Positions 7,986 through 63,056 of a stretch of DNA of 64,000 nucleotides are shown piece by piece. The stretch comes from Coriobacteriales bacterium OH1046 (GTDB lineage Bacteria; Actinomycetota; Coriobacteriia; Coriobacteriales; Atopobiaceae): contig RQYE01000005.1 in the NCBI GenBank assembly GCA_004010535.1, positions 124,001-188,000 on the forward strand, written 5' to 3'. A program made the translations under genes and the position numbers. The notes under the pieces are model-generated. The model had not been told where the DNA came from, did not search any database, and worked only from the letters and a program-made list of their open reading frames with translations. Each line of letters opens with the position of its first letter. Position 1 is the stretch's first letter.

Positions 7986-8000
7986 CCTGCGAAAACGTGG

Positions 8001-8073
8001 AGCCGGATAGCAGACTCGAACTGCTGGCCTACGCATTACGAGTGCGTCGCTCTACCAACTGAGCTAATCCGGC
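8001..8073 (-). tRNA. tRNA-Thr(CGT)
   Basis: The minus strand folds into a complete cloverleaf. The acceptor arms are GCCGGAT and ATCCGGC, the D arm holds TAGCTCAGTTGGTAGAGC, the anticodon stem ACGCA/TGCGT frames loop CTCGTAA with anticodon CGT, and the T arm holds GTTCGAGTC. The discriminator base is U and CCA is not encoded. It reads ACG threonine codons. Confidence 0.96.
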
Positions 8074-40273: not shown

Positions 40274-40903
40274 CTAGAACCCCAGGTTGTCGTTCACCAG
40301 GATCACGTGGATGCGACCCGCATGGCGCGAGAAACGCGTCATCAAGAACTGGCAGCAGATGGTATCCGGCGATTTGCAGTCGGAGCAGGCACCCGTCTTG
40401 GTGCAGGGCGTGGTGAGGCCGAAACGCTGCGTATTGATGGGTGCCGCCACGTTGCGGGCGCGCTTGTAGGCGGAGTCGATATCGGGGCAGACCTTGTTCA
40501 TGCCCACGATCAGCACGACCTTCCTGGGTCCCTGCGCGATAGCCGAGACGCGGTTTGCGTTGCCGTCGATGTTGATCATCACGCCGTCCTCGGTGATGGC
40601 GTTCGCACTGGCGAGGAACACGTCGGCATCATAGGCCGCGAGCATGGCGGCGCGTTTGTCCTCCATCTCGTCACGATCGATGAAATGGTACTCGCCCGCC
40701 TTGAGGGCTTCGACCAAACCGATCTCGTGCACGCTCATACCGCCGCCCATGGTGACGGTCGCCCCTTCGGGGATGAGCGCAAGCGCAATCGAACGCGCCT
40801 CGTCGGCATCCGCCGCATAGTAGCCGGTCATGTTCCGCGAGGCCAAGCCCTTAATGACCTTGCCTGCAAGCAGCTCGTTCCTCTTGATGATGGTGGCGTC
40901 CAT
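40274..40903 (-). CDS. LUD domain (DUF162) protein
   Basis: The 209-residue protein matches the LutC/YkgG LUD family: SRNMTGYYAADADEARSIALALIPEGATVTMGGGMSVHEIGLVEALK, LASANAITEDGVMINIDGNANRVSAIAQGPRKVVLIVGMNKV and a cysteine-rich stretch TPCTKTGACSDCKSPDTICC that may bind a metal. LutC acts with LutA/LutB in lactate oxidation; single LUD proteins like this occur widely in anaerobes without them. The start at 40903 follows a run of G. Its end abuts the DUF4143 remnant. Confidence 0.88.
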   Translation of the reverse strand: MDATIIKRNELLAGKVIKGLASRNMTGYYAADADEARSIALALIPEGATVTMGGGMSVHEIGLVEALKAGEYHFIDRDEMEDKRAAMLAAYDADVFLASANAITEDGVMINIDGNANRVSAIAQGPRKVVLIVGMNKVCPDIDSAYKRARNVAAPINTQRFGLTTPCTKTGACSDCKSPDTICCQFLMTRFSRHAGRIHVILVNDNLGF

Positions 40904-41096
40904 CCTGCCCCCCTTTACGCAGATGCAATGACATATCGATTGTATTCCACGCGCGGCCGATACGGCTATGCAACGATGGAAGCGACAGGAACGCGCCCGC
41001 TCGATACGAGCGGAGCCATGGCGAAGATGGCCATCATCGGTAGCGTCGTCATCGATGAGCATCTACGGGAAGAAGCGCTGCTATCGCAGCACATAG

Positions 41097-41527: not shown

Positions 41528-41992
41528 TCACATGTACAGATGCAGGGCGAGCGCCACTCCCATGATGACAAGACCGATGATACGCGTGATGATCGTCACA
41601 CTACGGATGGGTACTGACTGGAAGGTCTCGAACGATGATATGGGGTATGGGAAGATCACCAAAAATGCCCCCGCCACAGCAAGAAACACCCGGATTGCCA
41701 CACTATGGTCATTGAAAAACGATACGATGAGAATTGCAAGAGCCGCTAAAAAGAAGCCGGCATAGAGGAAGGTCTTATATCTCCCATCCCTCTCGATATA
41801 AACCTCAACGGCGTGAGCACACGAATTGCCGCATACAGGGAAATGGCGCGTCTTTGCAAGCACGAATTGGCGCTCATCCATATTCTCGGATAGGGGTTTC
41901 CCACAATTAATGCAGCGATCATGATCGACATAACTGCTGATAGTACTAGGAACACGTGGATTGAATTTAAGGTTGCGCTTCTTCTTTGCCAT
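41528..41992 (-). CDS. small membrane protein with zinc-ribbon-like N-terminus
   Basis: The 154-residue protein starts with a basic tail (AKKKRNLKFNPRVPS), then has a cysteine motif CINCGKPLSENMDERQFVLAKTRHFPVCGNSCAHAVEVY that looks like a zinc ribbon, and then three hydrophobic segments. The function is unknown. The start at 41992 follows GGGAGGG. It is the first of several genes with visibly lower GC content than the flanking DNA. Confidence 0.65.
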   Translation of the reverse strand: MAKKKRNLKFNPRVPSTISSYVDHDRCINCGKPLSENMDERQFVLAKTRHFPVCGNSCAHAVEVYIERDGRYKTFLYAGFFLAALAILIVSFFNDHSVAIRVFLAVAGAFLVIFPYPISSFETFQSVPIRSVTIITRIIGLVIMGVALALHLYM

Positions 41993-42053: not shown

Positions 42054-42698
42054 TCATTTCTTACGGTAGCTCGGATACGCATCAACGAACGGTTGCACCT
42101 GCTCAGGAGCCAAGTTCTTCCCGCCCCCTGCGAGACGCGTATTGTAGTAGAGGTGAGCAACATATTCGATCTGTTCGGCAACATCGAGCGCGTAGGCGAT
42201 ATCGGCGCCAACCGTCAGAAGCCCATGATTGCCCAGCAGACAGGCAAAGCGATCGTCCCCCATGGCATCGAACACCGTCTGCGCGAGTTCGTAGGTACCC
42301 GGCCTCACGAAGGGAATGCAGGGTACATCATGTCCGCTATAGGCGATATTATAGTGGACCGGTTCTATCGACCAATGCATGCACGCGCAGGTAGTCGCGA
42401 AGATTGAGTGGGTATGGATAACACCCGTGATCCCTGGTCGCATCTGGTAGAAGATGCGATGCAAATCGTACTCGCTCGACGGCTTCGCAGTGCCGTCTAC
42501 CTTCTCCCCATCGGGCGTGAGAACCACGACATCCTCGGGAAGGATCCGGTAATAGTCCATACCAGACGGGCAGATTGCCATCAGGCCCCTGTCAGGGTTA
42601 TAGACGCTGACGTTCCCAAACGTCCCCGACGTGAGTCCAAGCTCGCACATCTTGATACCGTACTCGACGACAAGCTCACGTTCCTCTTGAAGAATCAT
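42054..42698 (-). CDS. class II aldolase, L-fuculose-phosphate aldolase-like
   Basis: The 214-residue protein is full length for the FucA/AraD family. Zinc ligands H95 and H97 are in VIHTHSIFAT, a third His is in GNHGLLTVG, and the catalytic acid E76 is in KPSSEYDLHR, as in true aldolases. SGTFGNVSVY and CPSGMDYY bind phosphate. It should split a ketose 1-phosphate or related sugar acid phosphate into DHAP and an aldehyde. It follows the 2-hydroxyacid dehydrogenase gene by 22 bases in the sugar island. Confidence 0.88.
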   Translation of the reverse strand: MILQEERELVVEYGIKMCELGLTSGTFGNVSVYNPDRGLMAICPSGMDYYRILPEDVVVLTPDGEKVDGTAKPSSEYDLHRIFYQMRPGITGVIHTHSIFATTCACMHWSIEPVHYNIAYSGHDVPCIPFVRPGTYELAQTVFDAMGDDRFACLLGNHGLLTVGADIAYALDVAEQIEYVAHLYYNTRLAGGGKNLAPEQVQPFVDAYPSYRKK

Positions 42699-42720
42699 AT
42701 CGGCTCCAATCGATCGAGTG

Positions 42721-43806
42721 CTAAAGCTTGAGATTCCTGTAGTTCACGATACGCTCGGTCTTTCCCTGTTCGAGGATGTTGTCCACCTCTTTCATCAGGA
42801 GGAACGGAGAGCGTGAGATAGCATCCACGGTCTGTCCTGCTATATGACTCGTAATCGTCACATTATCGAGCGAAAGCAGGGGACTTGAGCTACTCAGAGG
42901 CTCGCTGTCGTAAACATCAAGTGCAGCCCCTGCAATAGCATGCTGGGAAAGAGCATCGATAAGATCCCCCTCATTGACAAGACCCCCACGGGCGGTGTTC
43001 ACGAAGTACGCCGATGGCTTCATCAGGGAGAAGAGGCGCTTGTCGAAGGAGCGTGCGTTTTCCTCGGTAAGGCGGACATGCAGGCTCACGACGTCAGCTC
43101 GCGAGAAGACCTCCTCGACACTGCCGACAAGCTCGAGGTCATCGAGGCCATTGTGTTTGAGACGTTCTCGGTCGGGATAGGGTTCATAGGCGATGAGATT
43201 CACGCCCAGAGCCTTGAGGCGCCATGCAAGCTCTATACCAACGTTACCGAGACCGATAAGACCGATAAGCATGGTATCGAGAGTCGTCACATACTCTTGG
43301 TTGGAAAACTTTTTCTGCCAGACACCCGTTTTGAGTGCAGCGTGGGAGTTAGCGATATTGCGTGTTACAGAAATGATGAGTCCAAGGGCGAATTCCGCAA
43401 CCGGTATTGCGTTGCGGATCACGTTGATGACGGGAATACCGCGTTCGGTTGCAGCAGCAATATCGATGTGTTCAAGCCCTCCTCGACTGGTAAGGATAGC
43501 TCTCAGCGAGGGAGCCCCTTCGATAACCCGACGCGGAATCGGACTGAGGTGATCAACAATTACCGTCGCATCAGCTACAGCCTTGAGAAGGCCTTCGGCT
43601 ATAGGTTCGGCCTCGGCTCCATTGCGTTCGATGTTGAGCTGATGCTCTGCGAACTCCTGGGGAGTGCGAGGAAACCACGCCAGTTTGACAACAGATGCGG
43701 CATTGACCGCAGAAGCACGTACAGCCTCCTCGATGGTGTCCGGAGAAACCATACAGTCTCCGATGACGCATACGTTCTGCGGCTCATCTTTCAGATAATC
43801 AAGCAT
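42721..43806 (-). CDS. D-isomer-specific 2-hydroxyacid dehydrogenase
   Basis: The 361-residue NAD-dependent enzyme has the flanking domain first (IVDHLSPIPRRVIEGAPSLRAILTSRGGLEHID), a Rossmann domain with IGLIGLGNVGIELAWRLKALGVNLIAYEP, the catalytic arginine and glutamate regions in VNTARGGLVNEGDL and LDVYDSEPL, and the histidine in ITSHIAGQT. It would reduce or oxidise a 2-oxo/2-hydroxy acid. A strong hairpin separates it from the upstream EIIC gene. In a sugar island its substrate may be a sugar acid phosphate or an aldehyde-derived acid. Confidence 0.88.
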   Translation of the reverse strand: MLDYLKDEPQNVCVIGDCMVSPDTIEEAVRASAVNAASVVKLAWFPRTPQEFAEHQLNIERNGAEAEPIAEGLLKAVADATVIVDHLSPIPRRVIEGAPSLRAILTSRGGLEHIDIAAATERGIPVINVIRNAIPVAEFALGLIISVTRNIANSHAALKTGVWQKKFSNQEYVTTLDTMLIGLIGLGNVGIELAWRLKALGVNLIAYEPYPDRERLKHNGLDDLELVGSVEEVFSRADVVSLHVRLTEENARSFDKRLFSLMKPSAYFVNTARGGLVNEGDLIDALSQHAIAGAALDVYDSEPLSSSSPLLSLDNVTITSHIAGQTVDAISRSPFLLMKEVDNILEQGKTERIVNYRNLKL

Positions 43807-43819
43807 CTTGCCCCTCTCG

Positions 43820-43859
43820 GAGAATCGGTCGTCGAGGGGGGTCCGACGACCGATTTCTC
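43820..43859 (-). terminator. intercistronic hairpin between the EIIC and dehydrogenase genes
   Basis: GAGAATCGGTCGTCG pairs with CGACGACCGATTTCTC (15 pairs, one bulged T) around 9 bases. On the minus strand it lies immediately ahead of the dehydrogenase ribosome binding site and has no T-tract. It may attenuate or process the message so that PTS genes are expressed more than the enzymes after them. Confidence 0.7.
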
Positions 43860-43888
43860 GGACTGAAACGCCTCATCGTGCAAAATGC

Positions 43889-45307
43889 CTACGCAGCGGG
43901 AACCTCGGCACCGGTGGAGATCAGGGCATTCTCTTCAACCCAGTCGACGATAGTAGCCTTGTTCTTCTTGAAGATGAGGTAGAGGACGAAGTAGAAAGCG
44001 ATGACCAGACCGAAGATCAGCGGATTCTGGGACCAGAATGCATAGAAGATGGCTGCGATGAGCGGATGGCACATGATGCCGAAGCTCATGATGTAGACGC
44101 CTTCTTGCGGAAGCTGGAAACCGGTGGAGATGGCGACCTCGGTGAAGGTAGGAGCCAGCTGGGAGGCAACGATGAGGCCCAAACCGAACCAGATAGCGCC
44201 CATGACAAGGGACTTGGCAACGTTGCCGTTGGATGAGGCGACGAAAACCTCGACCATATACGGCAGAGCGCAGAGGTCGGCCATGGGAAGGATCGTGTTG
44301 CCCGGAAGAACGAATGAAAGGCCGAGCATAACAGGAATCAGCAGCGTACCGGTAACGAGTGTATTGGGCTCACCGTAACCAGCAGCATCGTTGATCGAAA
44401 GGTACCAGTCGCGGCCGGCACCGGATTTGGCAGCCTTGGCCTTGTAGGCATCGGTCATAGCCGTGAAAGCTGAGGCGAAGATACCGCCAACCTTCGGGAA
44501 AATCGCCATGATGGCGGCAGTGTTGACGGCAACAGAGGTGATGGTTCCCCAAGAGGAGAGCTCGGCGAGGGCATTGAAATTACCTAGGATACCGATAATA
44601 AGGCCGACAATGAGACCGATGAACATCGGCTCTCCGAAGATGCCCAGCTTCTTCTGAATGGAATTGGCATCGAGGCGAATTCTGTTCATCCCGATCTTGG
44701 AGAGCAGCCAGTTCATACCGAGGGCATACGGCGTCGACTCGAGGTGATGCGGAGCAGTCATGCAGCACTGGGGATACTGATAGTAAGTAGACCAGCGCTT
44801 GGCCATGACTTCCGAGAAGAGAAGGATGTAGAGCAGCTGGGTGACCATGCATGCCATGGCAAGCCACATATTGCCGGTCAAAGCGTAGATCAGCGAGCCC
44901 CAGACCATGAAGGAATAGTTATTCCACAGATCGGAAGCCATGAAGACATCGGTCCACCTCGCAAAGAAGAGGATGAGTTCGAGCGCGATGGCAACGCCGA
45001 TGAACAGGATGCCAACCGTCGACGAGTAGGCGATGACTGAGGTAGACTGCCAGCCGGTATCAAGTGCGGGCAAGTTAACACCGGCATTCTCGACCATCTG
45101 GTTGACGACGGGTGCGACGATACCGGAATACGAATTGATGACCAAACTGAAGCCTGCAAGGCCGACAGCGGCAAGCAGGGCGGATCTGAACGCTTTGGCA
45201 TTGTCAAGCCCCATGAAACGACCGATAACGAAAAGAATAACTGGGACGATAACAACAGAGCCGAAAGTCGAGAAGACCGTATTCATTGCAGAGATGAAGG
45301 CTTCCAT
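43889..45307 (-). CDS. PTS EIIC, galactitol (Gat) family
   Basis: The 472-residue membrane protein is full length for the Gat-type EIIC family. It has about ten hydrophobic segments and the landmarks FVIGRFMGLDNAKAFRSALLAAVGLAGFSLVINSY, MNRIRLDANSIQKKLGIFGEP and ISTGFQLPQEGVYIMSFG. It forms the sugar channel and binding site. Gat-family members carry galactitol, ribitol, arabitol and similar polyols. It is cotranscribed after the EIIA and EIIB genes. Confidence 0.93.
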   Translation of the reverse strand: MEAFISAMNTVFSTFGSVVIVPVILFVIGRFMGLDNAKAFRSALLAAVGLAGFSLVINSYSGIVAPVVNQMVENAGVNLPALDTGWQSTSVIAYSSTVGILFIGVAIALELILFFARWTDVFMASDLWNNYSFMVWGSLIYALTGNMWLAMACMVTQLLYILLFSEVMAKRWSTYYQYPQCCMTAPHHLESTPYALGMNWLLSKIGMNRIRLDANSIQKKLGIFGEPMFIGLIVGLIIGILGNFNALAELSSWGTITSVAVNTAAIMAIFPKVGGIFASAFTAMTDAYKAKAAKSGAGRDWYLSINDAAGYGEPNTLVTGTLLIPVMLGLSFVLPGNTILPMADLCALPYMVEVFVASSNGNVAKSLVMGAIWFGLGLIVASQLAPTFTEVAISTGFQLPQEGVYIMSFGIMCHPLIAAIFYAFWSQNPLIFGLVIAFYFVLYLIFKKNKATIVDWVEENALISTGAEVPAA

Positions 45308-45392
45308 AACACTCCCTTCTTAGCGATGGATGAAATGTGTTGCATGTACGGCCGGGTTGAGCGCAGACCCCCCTCCCGAAAACCGCGCTGCG

Positions 45393-45686
45393 CTACTCGG
45401 CGTTAAGAATAGCTAGACAATCATCGACAACCTGCTGCTCTGCAAGACCAGTAAGCATACCGACGGCATTGACTTTAGGCACATCGAAGTCTTGGTACAC
45501 TGGACTCACGCACGCCATAAGTGAGAAGCCCCCTGCGGCGAGAGCGGTCTCGGCGGAATTGGGACTGCATTCCACACAGTGGACATCGTAACCATACTGG
45601 GCTAGGGCATCCTTAATCTTTTGGGCAACCATTGAGGAGCTCACGGTACCTGAGCCGCACACGCAAAGAATCTTGACTGTTTTCAT
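45393..45686 (-). CDS. PTS EIIB, galactitol family
   Basis: This 97-residue cytoplasmic phosphocarrier has the P-loop-like active site ILCVCGSGTVSSSMVAQKI, with the phosphocysteine most likely C10. It passes phosphate from EIIA to the polyol held by EIIC. It lies between the EIIA and EIIC genes. Confidence 0.93.
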   Translation of the reverse strand: MKTVKILCVCGSGTVSSSMVAQKIKDALAQYGYDVHCVECSPNSAETALAAGGFSLMACVSPVYQDFDVPKVNAVGMLTGLAEQQVVDDCLAILNAE

Positions 45687-45801
45687 TATCGATTCCTCCT
45701 AATTCCTCTTTCTTTTCGATCCGCAATGAATATCTTTTAACTACCGTTGGTTCATGTACTCGCCGTGCAATCCGCCTGCTATGTGTTGCAAGAAATATCC
45801 G

Positions 45802-46257
45802 CTACCCGATGTACCGACGAGCAGCCTCGAACAGTTCTTGAGTGCCACGAGCATTTGCAAACTCGATCATCGCCTCATCGTTCACGAAAACCCCCATCAT
45901 GTTCGAGAGCGTTTCAAGCTGCTTTTTCGGATCGGATATAGCCATCATGAACAGGATTTCCGCCGATACCCTGACATCGCCTTCTCCCATATGGCGAAAC
46001 TCGACTGGATGAGCGAGCTTAGCAACACAGACGGCGGGCGCTATTACATGGACTCCAAAGGTATGCGGCATCGCAACTCCCATGGTGCGAAGCTGCAAGC
46101 CCGTTGGATATTCCTTCTCCCGCTGAATAACGGCATCGATAAAGGTATCGCGCACATAGCCATGCTCGAGAAGCGGAGCGCCGATTTGGCGAATCGCATC
46201 TTCCGCATTTTCTGCATCCACATCGAACAAGATCAGCTCTCTATGAACTGCTTTCAC
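45802..46257 (-). CDS. PTS EIIA, fructose/mannitol-galactitol type
   Basis: This 151-residue protein belongs to the PTS_EIIA_2 family. The active-site His65 is in GVAMPHTFGVH, and REKEYPTGLQL precedes it as in GatA. The GTG at 46257 is preferred because AAAGGAGG lies 6 bases upstream; a longer frame from an ATG at 46287 would place that site inside the gene. It is the first gene of the PTS operon, divergent from the SorC-type regulator gene. Confidence 0.9.
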   Translation of the reverse strand: MKAVHRELILFDVDAENAEDAIRQIGAPLLEHGYVRDTFIDAVIQREKEYPTGLQLRTMGVAMPHTFGVHVIAPAVCVAKLAHPVEFRHMGEGDVRVSAEILFMMAISDPKKQLETLSNMMGVFVNDEAMIEFANARGTQELFEAARRYIG

Positions 46258-46414
46258 TGTTTTCCTCCTTTCGTTTTTAAACGTCATGTATCGCGCATGA
46301 ATACAAAATTCGGAGTTCTCATGTATCCCTCTCTCGGAGCTTTTCCCTCCACTTCCTGCGATCTAACCTGTTAAAAGCATCCCGCTTCCGACGTTTGTAT
46401 AAGGAGCCTAGGCT

Positions 46415-47371
46415 ATGAAAGCCCGCGAGGATCTTCTCATCCGTGCTGCCGAGCTTTACTTCGATCAAGAACTCAGCCAGAATGACGTCGCGAACATCCT
46501 GGGGATTTCCCGTCCCACGGTCTCCCGCCTTCTCGACGAGGCAAAAGCCACCGGCATCGTTGAAATCCGCGTAAACAGTCCCATCGTCAAGAACCCTGCT
46601 CTTTCCGCCGAAGTTCGCAACCTCTTCGGATTGAAGGACGCCATCGTACTTAAAGGAACCTACGGCTATCAGCAGTCTCTCTTCAGATGCTCCCGTGCCG
46701 CGCTTTCTTTCTGCGAGACAATTCTTGAGCGTTCGATGACTATCGGAACTAGCTGGGGTGCAGTTCCAAGCTATCTCTGCGATATTCTCGAAACCTCCGA
46801 AATTGATCATTCCCTCTTCAACATAGATATTGTCCAAATGGTCGGGTGTCTGGGAACGGGCAATCCCGATGTAGATGGAATCACAATTGCCCTGAGGCTC
46901 GCGAAGGCCTTCGGCGGCACGTATTCCAATATCTACGCGCCCGTTTTCGTTCAGTACAAAGAAGTCTATGATTTCCTCCTCAAGGAGCCTCAGATTGCCC
47001 AGACCCTTAAGAAATGCGAGAATCTCGACATAGCTATCATGGGAATCGGCTCGTTCGACCGCTCGACCATTCTCCAGAAAGCCGGCTACCTCAGCGACAG
47101 CAGTCGGCAGGCGCTTATCGAGGCAGGCGCAGTGGGGCATCTGCTTGCACGCCCCTTCGATAAGGATGGGAATGAGATTTTTAACGACTCTCGCCATACG
47201 GTCGGCGCTCCCCTCTCCTCAACTCGAAACGCCAAATGGTCCATCTGCGTATCTGCCGCCGAGTTCAAGGCTCCCGCTCTCCACGCGGCGATTCTTGGCG
47301 GCTATACCAATGTCGTCGTTATCGATGAACCCCTCGCCACCGCACTCATCGCCCTCGGCAACAAGGCATAG
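46415..47371 (+). CDS. SorC family sugar-responsive transcriptional regulator
   Basis: The 318-residue regulator has an N-terminal helix-turn-helix (residues about 5-50, LYFDQELSQNDVANILGISRPTVSRLLDEAKATGIVEIRV) and a C-terminal sugar-phosphate-binding domain. That domain includes TIGTSWGAVPSYL, IVQMVGCLGTGNPDVDG, IMGIGSFDRSTILQKAGYL and AGAVGHLLARPFDKDGNEI. SorC proteins respond to phosphorylated sugars and often activate PTS operons. It is divergent from the EIIA gene and converges on the dehydrogenase gene, so it is the likely regulator of the whole island. Confidence 0.92.
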   Translation: MKAREDLLIRAAELYFDQELSQNDVANILGISRPTVSRLLDEAKATGIVEIRVNSPIVKNPALSAEVRNLFGLKDAIVLKGTYGYQQSLFRCSRAALSFCETILERSMTIGTSWGAVPSYLCDILETSEIDHSLFNIDIVQMVGCLGTGNPDVDGITIALRLAKAFGGTYSNIYAPVFVQYKEVYDFLLKEPQIAQTLKKCENLDIAIMGIGSFDRSTILQKAGYLSDSSRQALIEAGAVGHLLARPFDKDGNEIFNDSRHTVGAPLSSTRNAKWSICVSAAEFKAPALHAAILGGYTNVVVIDEPLATALIALGNKA

Positions 47372-47385
47372 CGCCGTACACATTC

Positions 47386-48432
47386 CTATGCAATCGATTC
47401 GTCTACCGCGATAACGGCTTTGACACCTCTACCATCGGCAGTCATCTCGAAGCCTTCGCGCCAGTTTTCAAGAGTAACGATTTTGGAGACAATCTTTTCG
47501 GGAATGACGAGGCCCTCTTCCAGAAGACGCAGCGCAGTCATCCAAGAGCTGGGCTTCTGGCTACGCGACCCGACATAATTGATTTCCTTGTGAAGAACAT
47601 AGTCGCAACGGATGGGTACCTTCTCTTCTGCGAAAACGCCCATTTGAATGACCGAACCCTTACGACGTGTGATTTCGAGCGCTTTATTTGCAGCGGGAAC
47701 TGCTCCAGAACACTCGAAGGAGACGTCCACGCCCTCGCCACCGGTCATCTCTTTCACAATCGCAGCAAGATCTTCGGTAAACTGGTCGACCGCGCGATGA
47801 GCGCCGTTGGCAAGGGCGATATCGAAACGTTCTTTATCGGATGTAAGGCCGGCAACAATCACCTTCGCGCCGCATGCCGTCGCAACCTGAGCGACCATCT
47901 GACCAATGGCCCCAACACCAAAGATACAGACAACCATGCCCTTTTGCACGTTACCCTTCTCGATCGTAGCATGAACGCCACAGGCCAGAGGTTCGGTGAG
48001 CGCTGCAGAGAGCATGCTGACATTACCCGGCAAGATGTGAACGCTCTCCTCGCGGGACACAAGGTACTCTGCCATCGAACCGTTAATCTGGGTGCCAATG
48101 CCCCACCTATTACTGCAGAGGTTATAGTCTTTAGTCATGCAGCTGGAGCAATGACCGCATGTTGAGAAGGTCGTCTCACTAGTAACCCTATCTCCCACCC
48201 TGATATTTTTCACGTCCCGACCAACCGCAACCACAACTCCTGAGAACTCGTGACCAAGGATCACGGGGGGCTTGGTCGACGAGTAGCTTCCATTGAAAGC
48301 GTGGATATCGGTTCCGCACACACCGGAGTACGCGACCTTGATCTTAATAAGATCTCCTGTTGCCTCGGGCTCAGGAACATCCTGATAAACCATGTGATCC
48401 TTGCCAGGATCCGTCTTGACTATCGCCTTCAT
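47386..48432 (-). CDS. zinc-dependent polyol-type dehydrogenase (MDR family)
   Basis: The 348-residue enzyme has catalytic-zinc ligands C39 in GVCGTDIH and H61-E62 in LGHEFSG, structural-zinc cysteines C92, C95, C98 and C106, and a Rossmann IFGVGAIGQMVAQVA. This is the pattern of sorbitol, galactitol-1-phosphate and L-threonine dehydrogenases. Next to a Gat-type PTS it most likely oxidises the imported polyol phosphate to a keto-phosphate. The start at 48432 follows GGGAGGG. It is divergent from the transketolase genes. Confidence 0.9.
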   Translation of the reverse strand: MKAIVKTDPGKDHMVYQDVPEPEATGDLIKIKVAYSGVCGTDIHAFNGSYSSTKPPVILGHEFSGVVVAVGRDVKNIRVGDRVTSETTFSTCGHCSSCMTKDYNLCSNRWGIGTQINGSMAEYLVSREESVHILPGNVSMLSAALTEPLACGVHATIEKGNVQKGMVVCIFGVGAIGQMVAQVATACGAKVIVAGLTSDKERFDIALANGAHRAVDQFTEDLAAIVKEMTGGEGVDVSFECSGAVPAANKALEITRRKGSVIQMGVFAEEKVPIRCDYVLHKEINYVGSRSQKPSSWMTALRLLEEGLVIPEKIVSKIVTLENWREGFEMTADGRGVKAVIAVDESIA

Positions 48433-48773
48433 GGTGCCCTCCCGCACATCTGAAAAACAATGACTTTTCTATTTTTACATTTGTTCTTATAAAAAAACTT
48501 TTGTTGTTACACAGATACATGAGAACAATGCGAAACCGTTGTGTAATTCCGCCAACGGTCATTATTTTGCTCTATCCGTTATTTCCTTTTACGTCGTATT
48601 ATATTGACTATATAAAGTTTTATACTTCTATTGAAGTGTATTGAGATGCGTGTTCTTTATTGAAATTATGTAAAATATAATAAACATATGTAATATCCTG
48701 CAGGACATATTTAGAAGAAGCGGAGGCTTTTTGGGCAGAGTTGGAAAACTCGAAAGCAAAGGAGAGGTGTAGC
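48433..48773. promoter_or_regulatory. AT-rich divergent promoter region
   Basis: This 341-bp spacer, much richer in A+T than its surroundings, separates the dehydrogenase and transketolase genes. On the plus strand TATAAT at about 48677-48682 has TTCTTT 17 bases upstream. ACTTC-TATT-GAAGT near 48627-48640 is a short palindrome that could bind the SorC regulator. No gene is supported. Confidence 0.5.
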
Positions 48774-49676
48774 ATGACGAAGCATCGGTATTCCAATAGG
48801 GAGATTGCCGTCGCTGCGACGCAGATTCGCAAGCGTATCCTCAAGTTCGCTCTCGAAAGGGGGGGATGCTATCTTACACAAGCATGCTCGTCCGCCGAGA
48901 TTGTCGCAACATTGTATATGCGCATCCTGAATATCGGACCTTCTATCGGTAATCCCGAGGCGCAGCCCTTCCCAGGTGTCCCTTCTCCGAGCAACATGGA
49001 CTACCCTAAGGGCTGGTTTTATAATGGCGAGCACACCCCCGAGAGGGATCGTCTCTTTGTATCCTGCTGCCACTATGCATCGGTTATCTATTGCGCGCTC
49101 GCAGCAACCGATCGTATCTCTGAAAGCGCCCTCGATAAATTCAACGTCGATGGTTGGAACATGGAGATGATTGGCGCCGAGCATTCACCCGGTTTCGAGA
49201 ATACCGCCGGTTCTCTCGGCCAAACAGTCTCCGCTGCAGCAGGCGTCGCCCATGCCTATAAACTCAAGAACTACGCAGGCCGTATCTTTTGCATGCTCTC
49301 CGACGGTGAACTTGAAGAAGGCCAAGATTGGGAGTGCTTCCAAACTGCCTCCTTCTATAATCTCGACAATTTCATTGTCATCGTCGATGTCAACCACCAG
49401 CAGCTCGAAGGTTGGACAAAGGATGTTATGAACATCGAACCCATCGAAAAGCGCTTCGAAGCATTTGGATGGAAAGCCCTCCGCATCAACGGGCACAATA
49501 TCAACGCACTCACTGCGGCAAGCGCCATTGAGCATCCAGACCAGCCGCTTGTTATCCTCTGCGATACAAACCCTGCACAGGGTATCCCCACACTCGATTC
49601 CATTGTCCCCAAACACTTCGTCACCATCAACGAAGGCAATCGATCGGCATTCCAAGCTGAATACGACCGCATGTAG
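48774..49676 (+). CDS. transketolase, N-terminal (ThDP-binding) subunit
   Basis: This 300-residue protein equals the PP domain of transketolase. It contains AVAATQIRKRILKFALERGGCYLTQACSSAEIVATLYMRIL, HSPGFENTAGSLGQTVSAAAGVAHAYKLK and the ThDP/metal motif MLSDGELEEGQDWECFQTASFYNLDNFIVIVDVNHQQLEG (GDG variant with N). The pyrimidine-binding half is in the next gene, so the active enzyme is a two-subunit complex. The start at 48774 follows AAAGGAGAGG; the in-frame ATG at 48741 has no such site. Confidence 0.92.
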   Translation: MTKHRYSNREIAVAATQIRKRILKFALERGGCYLTQACSSAEIVATLYMRILNIGPSIGNPEAQPFPGVPSPSNMDYPKGWFYNGEHTPERDRLFVSCCHYASVIYCALAATDRISESALDKFNVDGWNMEMIGAEHSPGFENTAGSLGQTVSAAAGVAHAYKLKNYAGRIFCMLSDGELEEGQDWECFQTASFYNLDNFIVIVDVNHQQLEGWTKDVMNIEPIEKRFEAFGWKALRINGHNINALTAASAIEHPDQPLVILCDTNPAQGIPTLDSIVPKHFVTINEGNRSAFQAEYDRM

Positions 49677-49709
49677 GCGGAAGCACACGAGGAGGAAGGT
49701 CATCTACTT

Positions 49710-50699
49710 ATGATAATCGAGACCAACAGGCACTCCGCAAATATCATGCGCCTTGCCGAAAAGCACCCAGAGATTTTGGTCCTATCCGCTGACCTCGGCA
49801 GCTCCTGCGAGATAAAGGAATTCAACCAAAAGTATCCCGATCGATATCTATCCATGGGCATCGCCGAGGAGAACATGGTGTCGTGGGCCGGAGGCTTGGC
49901 ACGCGAGGGCTTCCGCCCCTTTATCCATACTTTTGCCGTCTTCTGCTATCGCCGTGTGCTCGATCAACTTGAGATGAGCGTCGCATACCCCAACCTCCCT
50001 GTTGTCTTCTGCGGCTTTGTGCCAGGTATCACAACCCCGGGTGGCGTCACCCATCAGTCAACTAATGACGTCGGTGTCCTGCGCACTGTTCCCAACCTTG
50101 CTATTTTCGATGTGGGCGATGCAACCGAAATCGATTCTGTGCTCGACCTTGCATACGAGTATAACGGTCCCGTTTATATACGCCAGCTCCGCAAGGATGT
50201 TCCAAGACTCTTCGATGCTACTGAACCTATGCGTTTCAATCGTGCACGTGTGCTATCCGAAGGAACCGATATCGCCTTGCTCTCATCCTCCATTTGCACT
50301 GAAGAAGCCATGCGCGCCACCTTGGTACTCGCCAAGAAGGGCGTCTCGATCCAGCATCTGCACGTTTCAACTCTTAAGCCCTTCACCGACCCGCAAATCA
50401 TCGAAGCATGCAAGAAAGCCAGATACGGTGTCATCACTATCGAGAACCATACCACTGTCGGTGGTCTCGGCTCTGCCGTAGCAGACGTCATAGCAGCAAA
50501 CGGCATTGGAAAGCGTCTTGTCAAGATTGGCCTCAACGACACGTATGCCCATGGAGCTTCTAAGATGTACCTCATGAAAAAGTACGGTCTTGATGCCATG
50601 AGCCTCGTCAGCGCTATCGAGAACCTCATGGGCAAGAAGCTCGGTATCGAGGAAGAAGATCTCGAAGAAGTCCGTTTCGTCGATTACACGGCGGTCTAA
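49710..50699 (+). CDS. transketolase, C-terminal subunit
   Basis: This 329-residue protein carries the Pyr domain (LVLSADLGSSCEIKEFNQKYPDRYLSMGIAEENMVSWAGGLAREGFRPFIHTFAVFCYRRVLDQ, with the ThDP-activating Glu in GIAEENM) and the C-terminal regulatory domain. It completes the enzyme begun in the preceding gene, 33 bases upstream. Split transketolases occur in many actinobacteria and in sugar islands, where they can use unusual donors such as apulose 4-phosphate. Substrate is unknown here. Confidence 0.92.
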   Translation: MIIETNRHSANIMRLAEKHPEILVLSADLGSSCEIKEFNQKYPDRYLSMGIAEENMVSWAGGLAREGFRPFIHTFAVFCYRRVLDQLEMSVAYPNLPVVFCGFVPGITTPGGVTHQSTNDVGVLRTVPNLAIFDVGDATEIDSVLDLAYEYNGPVYIRQLRKDVPRLFDATEPMRFNRARVLSEGTDIALLSSSICTEEAMRATLVLAKKGVSIQHLHVSTLKPFTDPQIIEACKKARYGVITIENHTTVGGLGSAVADVIAANGIGKRLVKIGLNDTYAHGASKMYLMKKYGLDAMSLVSAIENLMGKKLGIEEEDLEEVRFVDYTAV

Positions 50700-50723
50700 G
50701 GACCCTACGGAAGGAATAGGCCC

Positions 50724-51404
50724 ATGTTCGAAGACGAAAAACTCGCATGCATAAAGGCGGGTATGCAGCTCGACCGCTACGGACTCATCTCGCTCGCAGG
50801 CGGCAACATAAGCATGCGCATGAAGTCGGGAGAAATTCTCGTCACTCCTTCAGGCATGATCTACGAGGATATGGTTGCTGACGATATGGTTGTTATGGCC
50901 CTTGACGGCGAGATCATCGAGGGCAAACGTAAACCCTCCTCGGATACCGCTGCCATCCTCCATATCATGCGCGAGCGCCCGGATATCAACGCTGTCATCC
51001 ACACCCATCAGCCTTTCGCCACCGCCATCAGCCTTATCGAAGACGAATTCCGTGCTGACCTCACCACGCTCGGCAACTCCTGTGGCGGCAATGTGCCTAT
51101 CGCTCCCTACAGCTCCCCCGGCAGTGAAGATATGGGCAAGGACACGGTCAAATACCTCGGCGAAGGCCATGCAGTCATTCTCGCCCACCATGGTGTTATG
51201 ACCTGTGGCAACAGCCTCAAACAGGCACTCAATGCTGCCGTCTATCTTGAAGAGTGCGCCAAGGGCTACCTTGCCGCACGTGCAATCGGACCCATTAAGC
51301 ACCTTACCAACGCCCAAATCAAGCAGACTGTTGAAATATATAAGTATGTCGGCCAAGGCCACGGCAATATTCCCGAGGAATTTCTCGGGCGCGAAGGCGT
51401 CTAG
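50724..51404 (+). CDS. class II aldolase/epimerase, AraD-like
   Basis: The 226-residue protein keeps the zinc ligands H93 and H95 (VIHTHQPFAT) and a later His in LAHHGVMTCG, plus SLAGGNISMR and TPSGMIYE for phosphate binding. At the position where aldolases have Glu it has D74 (KPSSDTAAIL), as in L-ribulose-5-phosphate 4-epimerase (AraD). An epimerase feeding xylulose 5-phosphate to transketolase would fit its place 24 bases after the transketolase genes. An aldolase or decarboxylase role remains possible. Confidence 0.85.
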   Translation: MFEDEKLACIKAGMQLDRYGLISLAGGNISMRMKSGEILVTPSGMIYEDMVADDMVVMALDGEIIEGKRKPSSDTAAILHIMRERPDINAVIHTHQPFATAISLIEDEFRADLTTLGNSCGGNVPIAPYSSPGSEDMGKDTVKYLGEGHAVILAHHGVMTCGNSLKQALNAAVYLEECAKGYLAARAIGPIKHLTNAQIKQTVEIYKYVGQGHGNIPEEFLGREGV

Positions 51405-60686: not shown

Positions 60687-61538
60687 CTAATAGGACAGGC
60701 CAGGGTTGAAGAAGGACGTGTTGAGACCCGGAATAGTAATGCAGCCGATCATGGCAACAGCCACGAGGATAAGCATGACGATAGTCGGGCTGACCTTCTT
60801 CTTGGTCATAAGCCACCAGCACAGCCACACGAAGAAGAAGCTCAAGAACTTAGGCAGAATGGCGTCAAGCGTGCTTTGGAGCACAAAGGAGGATTTCTCG
60901 CTAAAGTTGATGGCAAAGCTCGTGGAGATAGAGATCCATGTCGCGGCAACCGAGCCGATGACCATGGAGCCGATCATGACGATGGAGCTGCGCAGAGCTG
61001 CAGAGTCGGGCCCCACAAGCGCCTCGACAGCCGATCCGCCCAAGGTGTAGCCCTGGTCGTAGGCATATTTCATGCCAAAGTACATGAGCACGTTCCAGAC
61101 AACCATATAGAAGAGGGGGCCGAGCGGATTTCCACCAGTCGAGAGGCCCAGTGCAATGCCAAGCAGAATGGGAATGAACGTACCGACGATAATCGAGTCG
61201 CCCAAGCCGGCAAGCGGGCCCATGAGACCGGCGCGGATACCGTTGATCGTCTCGGCATCCATCGGCTCGCCATTGGCGCGCGCCTCCTCAAGGCCAACGG
61301 TAAGACCCACAACCATGGTACCGATCTGCGGTTCCGTGTTGAAGAAAGTGGTATAGGTGCGCAGCGCATCGACCTTGTCCTCGTCCTTGTCGTACAGCTC
61401 GTCCACGATGGGCATCATCGACCAGAGATAGCCGAAGGTCTGCATATGCTCCTGGGAGAAGCAGGTGAGGTTGCCGTAGATCCAATGCAGGAAGGACTGC
61501 CTGCGTGCCTTCTCGGAGACTTTATTGATCTCTGCCAT
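60687..61538 (-). CDS. manZ: PTS mannose-family EIID
   Basis: The 283-residue membrane protein belongs to the mannose-family IID proteins: SFLHWIYGNLTCFSQEHMQTFGYLWSMMPIVDELY at the N-terminus, FFNTEPQIGTMVVGLTVGLEEARANG, and the conserved GLMGPLAGLGDSIIVGTFIPILLGIALGLS. It forms the translocator with IIC, whose stop codon is only 2 bases upstream of its start. The gene name follows the mannose system, but other hexoses or amino sugars are possible substrates. Confidence 0.92.
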   Translation of the reverse strand: MAEINKVSEKARRQSFLHWIYGNLTCFSQEHMQTFGYLWSMMPIVDELYDKDEDKVDALRTYTTFFNTEPQIGTMVVGLTVGLEEARANGEPMDAETINGIRAGLMGPLAGLGDSIIVGTFIPILLGIALGLSTGGNPLGPLFYMVVWNVLMYFGMKYAYDQGYTLGGSAVEALVGPDSAALRSSIVMIGSMVIGSVAATWISISTSFAINFSEKSSFVLQSTLDAILPKFLSFFFVWLCWWLMTKKKVSPTIVMLILVAVAMIGCITIPGLNTSFFNPGLSY

Positions 61539-61540
61539 GA

Positions 61541-62410
61541 TTAGATGTCCTCCTCTTCCTCATCGTCATCCATAGTGCCGGACCCAGCAGCCACAGGCGC
61601 ACGGCGGCCGGACTTCAGAGACTGGAGCTCGAAGTTAATAAGTGCGAAGAACACGGCGATAACCGCAGATGCAATGAGGTTGGCACCCATAACTGCCGCG
61701 AGGATGAAACCGAAGGCAAAGGTGATCCAGTCGAGCGGCTTGGCGATAACCTGTTTGCACAAAATGCCGACGCCTACGGCAGGGAGCAGGGAGCCCACGG
61801 TGAACAGCACCCTCATGGCATAGCCGTCCATAGGGAGGTATTCCTTCATGAGCTGGACCATAGGCTCACCGGCCATGCAGATGACAACAGTGGGGACGAA
61901 CGAGAAGATGATGTGGGAAATCCAGGGAAGCACGGTCTCAACCAGAGGGATGGTCCTCTTGATCTGCGACCATTTGCCCGACTCCATAGCCCTCCAGCCA
62001 ATACCCTGCCACACGAGGTTCATTGTCGCCGTGCCATAGAACAATACGGTACCCAGCGTACCCACAGCTGCACCAAGGGCAGCGGCAAGGCTTGCCGCCT
62101 CGGTAGAGTTGGGGTCAAGGCCTTGAGCCTGGATGGCCAGCATCGACAGCGGGATACCGATATAGGTGATGGCGCGCACGTCTGCGGAAACAGTGCCGCC
62201 CGGGGTGACAAGGGCGATGTAGACAATCTGAATAGCAGCGCCGACGATAATGCCGAGCTGCATATTGCCCATGATAATGCCCACGATGAGGCCACCGACA
62301 AGGGGGCGTCCCAGCGTGTAGTTGCCTACCGTGGTGCCGCCCATACCCGGCAGGGATGCCAGGCAGGCAAAGATGCCGAGCAATACCGCCTGAAAAATAC
62401 CGATCGTCAT
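61541..62410 (-). CDS. manY: PTS mannose-family EIIC
   Basis: The 289-residue membrane protein opens with IFQAVLLGIFACLASLPGMGGTTVGNYTLGRPLVGGLIVGIIMGNMQLGIIVGAAIQIVYIALVTPGGTVSADV, which is diagnostic of mannose-family IIC. A C-terminal acidic tail (MDDDEEEEDI) is notable. It makes the sugar channel together with IID. It follows the IIB gene by 15 bases. Confidence 0.93.
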   Translation of the reverse strand: MTIGIFQAVLLGIFACLASLPGMGGTTVGNYTLGRPLVGGLIVGIIMGNMQLGIIVGAAIQIVYIALVTPGGTVSADVRAITYIGIPLSMLAIQAQGLDPNSTEAASLAAALGAAVGTLGTVLFYGTATMNLVWQGIGWRAMESGKWSQIKRTIPLVETVLPWISHIIFSFVPTVVICMAGEPMVQLMKEYLPMDGYAMRVLFTVGSLLPAVGVGILCKQVIAKPLDWITFAFGFILAAVMGANLIASAVIAVFFALINFELQSLKSGRRAPVAAGSGTMDDDEEEEDI

Positions 62411-62425
62411 TGCAATTCTCCTCCT

Positions 62426-62923
62426 TTACCTCAAATCAAACTGACTGCGGAACTTGGACCAATCTCCAATGGAGACGTCGGGAAGCAAGGCAAACTGCAC
62501 CTCATAGCCCGCTTTAACCATGTCTTCAAACGCCTGCGCCTCTTCAGCGGTGATGGACTGGTTGTTCCCGAGCTTTACGGTGCCGGGACGATCGTTGCAG
62601 GGACCAACGTTGACACGCGCAACGTCTGAGGGCTTAAAGCCATAATCGATAAGGATCGTCTTCATATCCAGCGGGCTTTTCGTGACGAGAAAATACCGCG
62701 TCTTACTGGACAGAACCTTCTCCATGCTCTCCTTGAAGTGGTCGAGCGTCCAGACAAAGATCTTCTTGTCTGGTGCAGCACCCTTGTAAGCACTCTTCAG
62801 CACTGGATTAGACGCGGCGACATCATTCACGGCGATGATGCCATCGCAGGGGTACTCCAGCGCCCAACGGGTAACTGTCTGACCATGAATCATGCGATCG
62901 TCAATACGGACAAACGAAATCAT
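62426..62923 (-). CDS. PTS mannose-family EIIB
   Basis: The 165-residue cytoplasmic protein has the phosphohistidine H13 in VRIDDRMIHGQTVTRWA, the hallmark of the mannose family in which IIB uses histidine rather than cysteine. It carries phosphate from IIA to the sugar. The start at 62923 follows AAAGGAGAGG. Confidence 0.93.
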   Translation of the reverse strand: MISFVRIDDRMIHGQTVTRWALEYPCDGIIAVNDVAASNPVLKSAYKGAAPDKKIFVWTLDHFKESMEKVLSSKTRYFLVTKSPLDMKTILIDYGFKPSDVARVNVGPCNDRPGTVKLGNNQSITAEEAQAFEDMVKAGYEVQFALLPDVSIGDWSKFRSQFDLR

Positions 62924-63056
62924 TGCCTCTCCTTTCACATCTCCCGAACAGCCCACAGCAAACAGTCCAAGTCCGCAGCGTGCGAACATGGCGCCCTTAT
63001 GCCCGTCGGTTAGGACTTGTATGGATCCCCAACCGATTAGAGCCTGTTTTTACCGG

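Follow-up and report, generated by a model that had tools for sequence, protein, structure and literature searches.

A conserved phosphotransferase-system gene cluster with a non-canonical split transketolase in a Coriobacteriales genome and its possible link to C5-modified pentitols

Which substrate would call for a Gat-type phosphotransferase system (PTS), two class II aldolase-fold proteins and a two-subunit transketolase in one gene cluster? The question is raised by an island of eleven genes in a 64,000-nucleotide stretch of the genome of Coriobacteriales bacterium OH1046 (contig RQYE01000005.1, positions 124,001 to 188,000; hereafter the window). Ten of these open reading frames had been named in an initial annotation, and all ten are present where it placed them. 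Pfam and NCBIfam profile matches agree with its families: class II aldolase (two genes), 2-hydroxyacid dehydrogenase, EIIC-GAT, PTS_IIB, PTS_EIIA_2, Sugar-bind (SorC), zinc dehydrogenase, Transketolase_N, and Transket_pyr with Transketolase_C. The extent given to the island was one gene short: a 154-residue membrane protein with four cysteines is encoded 3' of the FucA-like gene and was overlooked. The PTS operon is on the minus strand in the order EIIA-EIIB-EIIC-HADH-AldA-small membrane protein, the SorC gene is on the plus strand, and an AT-rich intergenic region separates the divergently transcribed ZnDH gene and TKN-TKC-AldB operon. The features are as follows.

41528..41992, minus strand: ZR, 154-residue membrane protein with a four-cysteine motif, final gene of the PTS operon; the other copies have homologues in the corresponding position, and no Pfam family scores above cut-off
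42054..42698, minus strand: AldA, FucA/DrdA-like class II aldolase with E76, from profile matches and solved relatives
42721..43806, minus strand: HADH, D-2-hydroxyacid dehydrogenase family, from family profiles
43889..45307, minus strand: EIIC of a Gat-type PTS, in a subfamily apart from GatC-like proteins by TIGR00827 score and tree
45393..45686, minus strand: EIIB, from family profiles; 27% identity to E. coli GatB
45802..46287, minus strand: EIIA, from family profiles; 29% identity to E. coli GatA
46415..47371, plus strand: SorC-family regulator, from family profiles; in a clade of its own with the copies at loci L040, L088 and L089 (support 100/100)
47386..48447, minus strand: ZnDH, zinc-dependent dehydrogenase of the medium-chain dehydrogenase/reductase (MDR) family, from family profiles; presumed polyol-phosphate dehydrogenase
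48473..48488, plus strand: tentative operator-like motif TTTTACATTTGTTCTT between the divergent ZnDH and TKN genes; weaker matches at 48660 and 48680
48774..49676, plus strand: TKN, N-terminal subunit of a non-canonical split transketolase, from profiles, alignment and tree
49710..50699, plus strand: TKC, C-terminal subunit of the same transketolase, from profiles, alignment and tree
50724..51404, plus strand: AldB, AraD-like protein of the class II aldolase fold that has D74 but lacks the AraD catalytic aspartate, from profiles and alignment

A family-wide EIIC search of 140 genomes returned one close relative, with 73% identity, in a genome (G007) of the same family as the window. Its locus (L040) has the layout of the window, with identities of 81% for TKC, 75% for AldB, 72% for TKN and ZnDH, 60% for HADH and AldA, 58% for SorC and 32% for the small membrane protein, and of 60% and 71% for EIIA and EIIB by tblastn. 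A contig scan with a four-sequence TKN alignment added two Clostridia, a member of Clostridiales Family XIII (L088, the same tract as the refetched L179) and Candidatus Agathobaculum merdavium (L089). The Family XIII locus has every gene but AldA; between its SorC and EIIA genes lie a second zinc dehydrogenase and a further class II aldolase, and its small membrane protein is 35% identical to that of the window. The L089 contig stops inside EIIC, and a second contig of this genome (L178) carries, at its end, the remainder of EIIC together with HADH (53%), AldA (64%) and the small protein (40%). With the window counted, EIIA, EIIB, EIIC, HADH, the small protein, SorC, ZnDH, TKN, TKC and AldB are present in four of four genomes and AldA in three. 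Across the three other copies, identities are 46–81% for most genes and 32–40% for the small membrane protein. This agreement in gene content and order is more than chance. The recurrence of ten or eleven genes in three other genomes therefore points to one functional unit, and the island is very probably a single conserved PTS catabolic unit. This supports the annotation's proposal of such a unit, with substrate passing from a Gat-type PTS to a dehydrogenase, enzymes of the class II aldolase fold and a transketolase of two subunits. The set shared by the window's family and clostridial genomes is a handle for finding the substrate.

The transketolase departs from canonical enzymes in its active-site motifs. 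TKN was aligned in 87 rows, 49 from its own subfamily and 38 from other split transketolases. The first canonical histidine (GHPG) is replaced by tyrosine in 49 of 49 subfamily rows, while the other rows have histidine (31 of 38) or tyrosine (7 of 38). All 49 also have G134, E136 and H137 of an EMIGAEHSP motif at the point where most other rows read GHP and have a longer loop. H100 is retained in 42 of the 49 (glutamine in seven) and H281 in 48, with one gap. In TKC the subfamily reads GFxPG...PGG where canonical split transketolases read ATHAG...EDG (31 chosen rows). The window pair thus lacks the GHPG and GHP histidines in TKN and the ATHAG histidine and EDG aspartate in TKC, and its TKN has the GYLSQACS-type and EMIGAEHSP motifs of the subfamily and falls within its clade. 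His103 of yeast transketolase contacts the C1 hydroxyl of the donor, and the other replaced positions in TKN and TKC are presumably substrate-contact residues of the canonical enzymes. A role of His103, the GHP histidine, in substrate recognition is named in the title of a reference cited in PMC3352088. A non-canonical specificity is likely for the window transketolase, and the motifs suggest that the donor of the subfamily may lack a normal C1 hydroxyl.

The annotation had hinted at a transketolase acting on apulose 4-phosphate. TKN and TKC are only 27% and 31.5% identical to AptA and AptB, which the part of PMC13001218 that covers them assigns to the apiose cluster of E. coli SE15; together with the different active-site motifs and a separate branch of the tree, this rules that function out. 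A plasmid-borne pair in Ensifer is closer, with identities of 44% and 59%. The Ensifer operon has the order ABC transporter-MtnK-MtnA-TKN-TKC-RuBisCO-like protein, and its MtnK (491.2 bits, curated cut-off 275) and MtnA (443.6 bits, cut-off 279) both pass their thresholds. Other plasmid relatives occur with an FGGY kinase, a zinc dehydrogenase, an AraD-like protein, a SorC-type regulator and a BisC-family S/N-oxide reductase, and a further one lies beside a RuBisCO-like protein and an FGGY kinase. Among 396 genomes of the phylum sample, the window genome and two others score above 240 bits for this transketolase and the rest reach at most 134.2 bits.

Neighbors were counted within 8.5 kb of the transketolase at the 48 subfamily loci other than the window, with no correction for contig ends. 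RuBisCO-like genes were present at 28 loci, MtnK at 18, MtnA at 17, FGGY kinase at seven, BisC at five and EIIC at three. At least one of RuBisCO-like, MtnK and MtnA, all genes of 5-methylthioribose/5-deoxyribose metabolism, was found at 31 of the 48, compared to none of 36 other transketolase loci in the same scan. L040, L051 and L053 were part of the TKN alignment used for that scan; setting aside L040 and three plasmid loci leaves 29 of 44. In a tree of 55 rows, from which two rows without TKC were dropped and in which the program flagged long branches, the window, L040, L088 and L089 form a PTS clade (100/100) nested in a 45-row clade (100/98) rich in RuBisCO-like, MtnK and MtnA loci. A search of the open-access literature returned no paper that ties the transketolase to RuBisCO-like, MtnK or MtnA genes and none that describes the present PTS cluster.

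Several operon types in this subfamily were noted in their own right. MtnK-(MtnA)-TKN-TKC-RuBisCO-like operons occur at L051, L092, L099, L101, L106, L115, L121, L123, L127, L130 and others. They possibly encode an undescribed methionine-salvage or 5-deoxyribose route in which the transketolase stands where the methylthioadenosine (MTA)-isoprenoid shunt has a cupin. At L052, L111, L119, L122 and L124 the transketolase accompanies an AraD-like protein, a zinc dehydrogenase, a BisC-family S/N-oxide reductase and a SorC-type regulator of the MtnR group; four of the five have an FGGY kinase within the same distance, and L111 has one farther off. This gene content suggests a sulfoxide-bearing sugar as the substrate. 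The same transketolase is a single fused open reading frame adjoining a RuBisCO-like protein at L090 and L093, and is likewise fused at L094, where the contig ends.

The EIIC of the island leads to related genes by another path. It scores 240.7 bits with the galactitol model TIGR00827 (cut-off 542.2), and its type forms a clade apart from GatC-like EIICs (17 and 10 rows in the tree). One type of cluster in this clade (L041–L045) has an EIIC with 50–51% identity to that of the window, a DeoR-type regulator and two class II aldolases. All three accompanying proteins have counterparts in an Oscillospiraceae operon at L121, with identities of 38–44% for DeoR and 50–53% for aldolase 1 (three loci each) and 52–57% for aldolase 2 (four loci). 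The L121 operon reads MtnK-MtnA-DeoR-TKN-TKC-RuBisCO-like-aldolase 1-PduL-EutN-aldehyde dehydrogenase-RnfC-type-BMC-BMC-EutN-FucU-aldolase 2. The common genes are a second, independent link of the EIIC clade to 5-methylthioribose/5-deoxyribose genes. Lactobacillus plasmids also carry EIIC relatives, which had no informative neighbors.

The L121 operon is itself of note as a microcompartment operon (L121:6796-20708, with a second example at L112:3-13475) that combines MtnK, MtnA, the unusual transketolase, a RuBisCO-like protein, one or more class II aldolases, PduL, an aldehyde dehydrogenase and shell proteins; the Pfam assignments are those of L121. A description of this operon was not found in the open-access literature.

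The two aldolase-fold proteins differ in how closely they resemble characterized enzymes. E76 of AldA, singled out in the annotation, aligns without gaps to E76 of DrdA, and the histidine motif of the FucA/DrdA family is also present. The nearest solved structure is 6btd, with 199.7 bits, compared to 143.6 bits for S. pneumoniae FucA (4c24) and at most 110.7 bits for E. coli-type FucA chains. According to the part of PMC6079011 that reports it, 6btd is DrdA, a 5-deoxyribulose-1-phosphate aldolase. The best NCBIfam model, PRK06833, scores 236.7 bits, below its equivalog cut-off of 264, and the second-best, a ribulose-1-phosphate aldolase, scores 163.9 bits and is also below cut-off. When the tree is built without DrdA, the nearest neighbors of AldA are its counterparts in the two other copies that have one, followed by the PTS-cluster aldolases of L038 and L048.

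AldB forms a clade (100/99) with its counterparts in the three other clusters and a paralogue encoded by the window genome. D74, at the position of the FucA glutamate, is as the annotation had it, but the AraD epimerase function inferred there is not secure. AldB reads LGNSC where two AraDs read HADYF and QADYF, and the aspartate of this motif is the AraD catalytic residue. Without this residue, AldB is at most a putative epimerase. The best NCBIfam model, PRK06557 of the L-ribulose-5-phosphate 4-epimerase subfamily, gives 190.7 bits against a cut-off of 251. Elsewhere in the window genome (G000:C3) an AraD with 56% identity to E. coli AraD lies beside an FGGY kinase and a canonical split transketolase. 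Because the genome has its own true AraD and canonical split transketolase, AldB and the island transketolase are neither arabinose enzymes nor housekeeping ones, and a housekeeping role of either is ruled out.

A pathway can be proposed that accommodates most of these components, although it assigns no role to HADH or the small membrane protein. The Gat-type PTS would import and phosphorylate a small polyol or ketose, and ZnDH would form a ketose phosphate by oxidizing the phosphorylated polyol. This product would be a substrate for cleavage by the non-canonical transketolase, with AldB acting next to it, and AldA would cleave an alternative ketose 1-phosphate to dihydroxyacetone phosphate (DHAP) and an aldehyde. 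Given the PTS, ZnDH, AldA, AldB and the transketolase, the simplest parent is a ribo-configured pentitol phosphate, which suits ribitol and its 5-deoxy or 5-methylthio forms: oxidized on one side it would supply AldA with a ketose 1-phosphate, and on the other it would supply AldB and the transketolase with a ketose 5-phosphate. The modified forms are preferred because of the transketolase subfamily, the DrdA-like AldA and the genes held in common with MtnK/MtnA operons. The leading candidate substrate would be a reduced relative of the 5-deoxyribose or 5-methylthioribose (MTR) released by cells. Its stereochemistry is compatible with the scheme. Oxidation next to the modified carbon would give a 1-modified L-ribulose 5-phosphate, and epimerization at C4 would convert it to a 1-modified D-xylulose 5-phosphate, which may also be the product of RuBisCO-like-protein pathways ahead of the same transketolase subfamily. 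If the carbon beside the phosphate end is oxidized instead, the product would be the type of substrate used by DrdA and Ald2. The gene set, its conservation and the transketolase subfamily, with its altered motifs and genomic company, are established by the sequences, whereas the substrate, the order of steps and the roles of AldB and ZnDH are inferred. As a whole, with its uptake, oxidation and double cleavage, this scheme for a C5-modified pentitol or pentulose (5-deoxy- or 5-(methylthio)-ribitol or the matching pentulose) is advanced tentatively. The fuller version is possible but doubtful: that the island is a PTS branch of a wider transketolase-based disposal of radical-S-adenosylmethionine and polyamine by-products, extending to the MtnK-MtnA-transketolase-RuBisCO-like operons and the microcompartment version, with the remodelled transketolase cleaving 1-modified D-xylulose 5-phosphate and the DrdA-like aldolase the matching ketose 1-phosphate.

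Such a polyol is not fanciful, since the portion of PMC6302742 concerned records that rats form 5-deoxy-D-ribitol from 5'-deoxy-5-fluorouridine. According to the relevant part of PMC10986504, MTR and 5-deoxyribose are excreted by E. coli that lacks the DHAP shunt. If a 5-deoxy or 5-thio pentitol is the substrate, the island would show how anaerobes consume by-products made by all cells and excreted by many. It would also account for a transketolase subfamily that keeps company with RuBisCO-like proteins and had no assigned function in the open-access literature searched.

Two known routes for such by-products offer a comparison, as far as the cited sections describe them. The DHAP shunt (DrdK/DrdI/DrdA; MtnK/MtnA/Ald2; PMC6079011, PMC12632272) shares the DrdA/FucA-like class II aldolase and a sugar-binding regulator, which in E. 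coli is MtnR (formerly YjhU), encoded beside the operon. The window has a PTS and dehydrogenase in place of the kinase and isomerase, and adds the transketolase and a second aldolase-fold protein. The MTA-isoprenoid shunt (PMC5893883) uses a RuBisCO-like protein and a cupin. Its likeness lies in the window's transketolase subfamily, which sits beside RuBisCO-like proteins and may act on 1-(methylthio)xylulose 5-phosphate; the window itself has no RuBisCO-like protein, and a transketolase instead of the cupin.

A number of observations weigh against a C5-modified pentitol. The PTS cluster has no MtnK, MtnA or RuBisCO-like gene, so the link to 5-deoxy and 5-thio sugars is by relatives only. A genome-wide search of the window genome found an MTA/S-adenosylhomocysteine nucleosidase (173.6 bits) but no RuBisCO-family gene and no MtnA (MtnK was not sought genome-wide), and among the three other carriers of the cluster MtnA is present in G007 alone. 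RuBisCO-like, MtnK and MtnA genes are all lacking at 17 of the 48 subfamily loci, some of which are on short contigs. The epimerization needed for the stereochemistry has no catalytic residue in AldB, HADH has no place in the scheme, and in L088 AldA is replaced by a different class II aldolase and a second dehydrogenase. AldA shows no special grouping with E. coli Ald2 in the tree without DrdA, where it joins PTS-cluster aldolases. E. coli MtnR forms a group (100/98) with the SorC regulators of Roseobacter-type loci and of several MtnK/MtnA loci; the window SorC lies outside this group and is only about 25% identical to MtnR, no nearer than to other SorC proteins. Its four-copy clade is long and isolated, and its phylogeny indicated no ligand. 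PTS uptake of a 5-deoxy or 5-methylthio pentitol is, to our knowledge, without precedent.

Ordinary ribitol, the scheme of the initial annotation, suits the gene complement equally well. The PTS would yield ribitol phosphate, ZnDH L-ribulose 5-phosphate and AldB D-xylulose 5-phosphate for a usual transketolase, with AldA splitting D-ribulose 1-phosphate. The second-best AldA model and the best AldB model agree with these roles, although neither reaches its NCBIfam cut-off. We consider ribitol unlikely, given transketolase motifs that are non-canonical in every subfamily row, an AldB without the AraD aspartate, and a canonical split transketolase and AraD already in the genome.

A different modified or chain-altered polyol, such as a 6-deoxyhexitol (L-fucitol, L-rhamnitol) or a sugar-acid phosphate, would make HADH a true step and let AldA, a member of the FucA family, split a fuculose-like or oxo-acid phosphate. 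The second cluster type of the EIIC clade bears on this proposal: at L038, in the window genome, and at L046–L050, EIIC is found with an adjacent HADH-AldA pair, a zinc dehydrogenase and, at all six loci, an iron alcohol dehydrogenase-like gene, joined in L046–L050 by an enolase-superfamily gene (Pfam assignments of these neighbors were made on the L049 copies). HADH beside a class II aldolase and an FGGY kinase also recurs elsewhere. This proposal leaves the RuBisCO-like/MtnK/MtnA-linked transketolase subfamily unexplained, and the chance that it is correct is judged to be low.

The L038 cluster (G000:C2:155000-174900) is paralogous to the island, with the order EIIA/B/C-HADH-AldA-zinc dehydrogenase-iron alcohol dehydrogenase-like and a different small cysteine-rich membrane protein beside EIIA. 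On alphaproteobacterial plasmids (L055, L184, L185) an FGGY kinase, a 2-hydroxyacid dehydrogenase and a class II aldolase form a recurrent trio, and these neighborhoods gave no hint of a substrate.

The island might instead be two unrelated operons that happen to be neighbors, with the PTS block in L088 broken by two extra genes and an operator-like motif preceding just one of the two blocks. A motif like TTGACATTTGTTC is the top match of its own locus in each ZnDH/TKN intergenic region in a leave-one-out comparison (rank 1 of 127970, 39970, 41752 and 16556 positions), a tentative result because the sites had been jointly chosen beforehand. The EIIA/SorC intergenic region of the window gave low scores and no such motif. 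A motif sought across nine intergenic stretches scored 82.4 at width 12 (shuffles up to 82.4) and 97.1 at width 16 (shuffles up to 95.4). A common operator for both blocks is rejected on these grounds. Co-regulation of the two blocks, as expected in the annotation, is only partly supported, by their staying together in four genomes and not by the motif, which is confined to the dehydrogenase/transketolase block. Both blocks recur in the same layout in all four genomes, which makes unrelated operons very improbable.

That the island is an already described galactitol or apiose/apiitol operon that has reached a new host, as the Gat-type PTS and two-subunit transketolase might suggest, is hardly credible: the EIIC score and clade and the distance from AptA/AptB argue against it, and the translations reveal no tagatose-bisphosphate aldolase (GatYZ) among the open reading frames of 38–64 kb and, within the cluster, neither an apulose kinase nor an apiose isomerase. 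The galactitol operon (gatYZABCD) shares the EIIA/EIIB/EIIC type and an MDR dehydrogenase, but the window has a transketolase and class II aldolases instead of GatYZ; its absence, which the annotation had already remarked, and the EIIC results rule this operon out. The D-apiose route, in the part of PMC13001218 that outlines it, likewise has a split transketolase and a SorC-type regulator, but the transketolase is of another branch, an ABC transporter stands in place of the PTS, and an apulose kinase is included. The L-arabinose operon araBAD shares the AldB fold family and D74 through AraD, but AldB lacks the HADYF aspartate and the true AraD is kept elsewhere. The island is neither a galactitol, an apiose nor an arabinose operon, and the annotation's suggestion of an undescribed route is judged likely.

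The surroundings of the island were also inspected. GC content is 46–56% in the 41–52 kb region, 57–69% in the left part of the window and 53–59% at 56–64 kb. The description of the island as an AT-richer stretch is therefore accurate relative to the left part only, and composition does not set its boundary because the right part is also low. The sole tRNA gene of the window (7998–8073) is distant from the island. A LUD-domain protein is encoded to the left of the island (40274–40936, minus strand), and open reading frames at 60687–62989 (minus strand) resemble EIIB, EIIC and EIID of a mannose-type PTS, names that were assigned from the translations alone.

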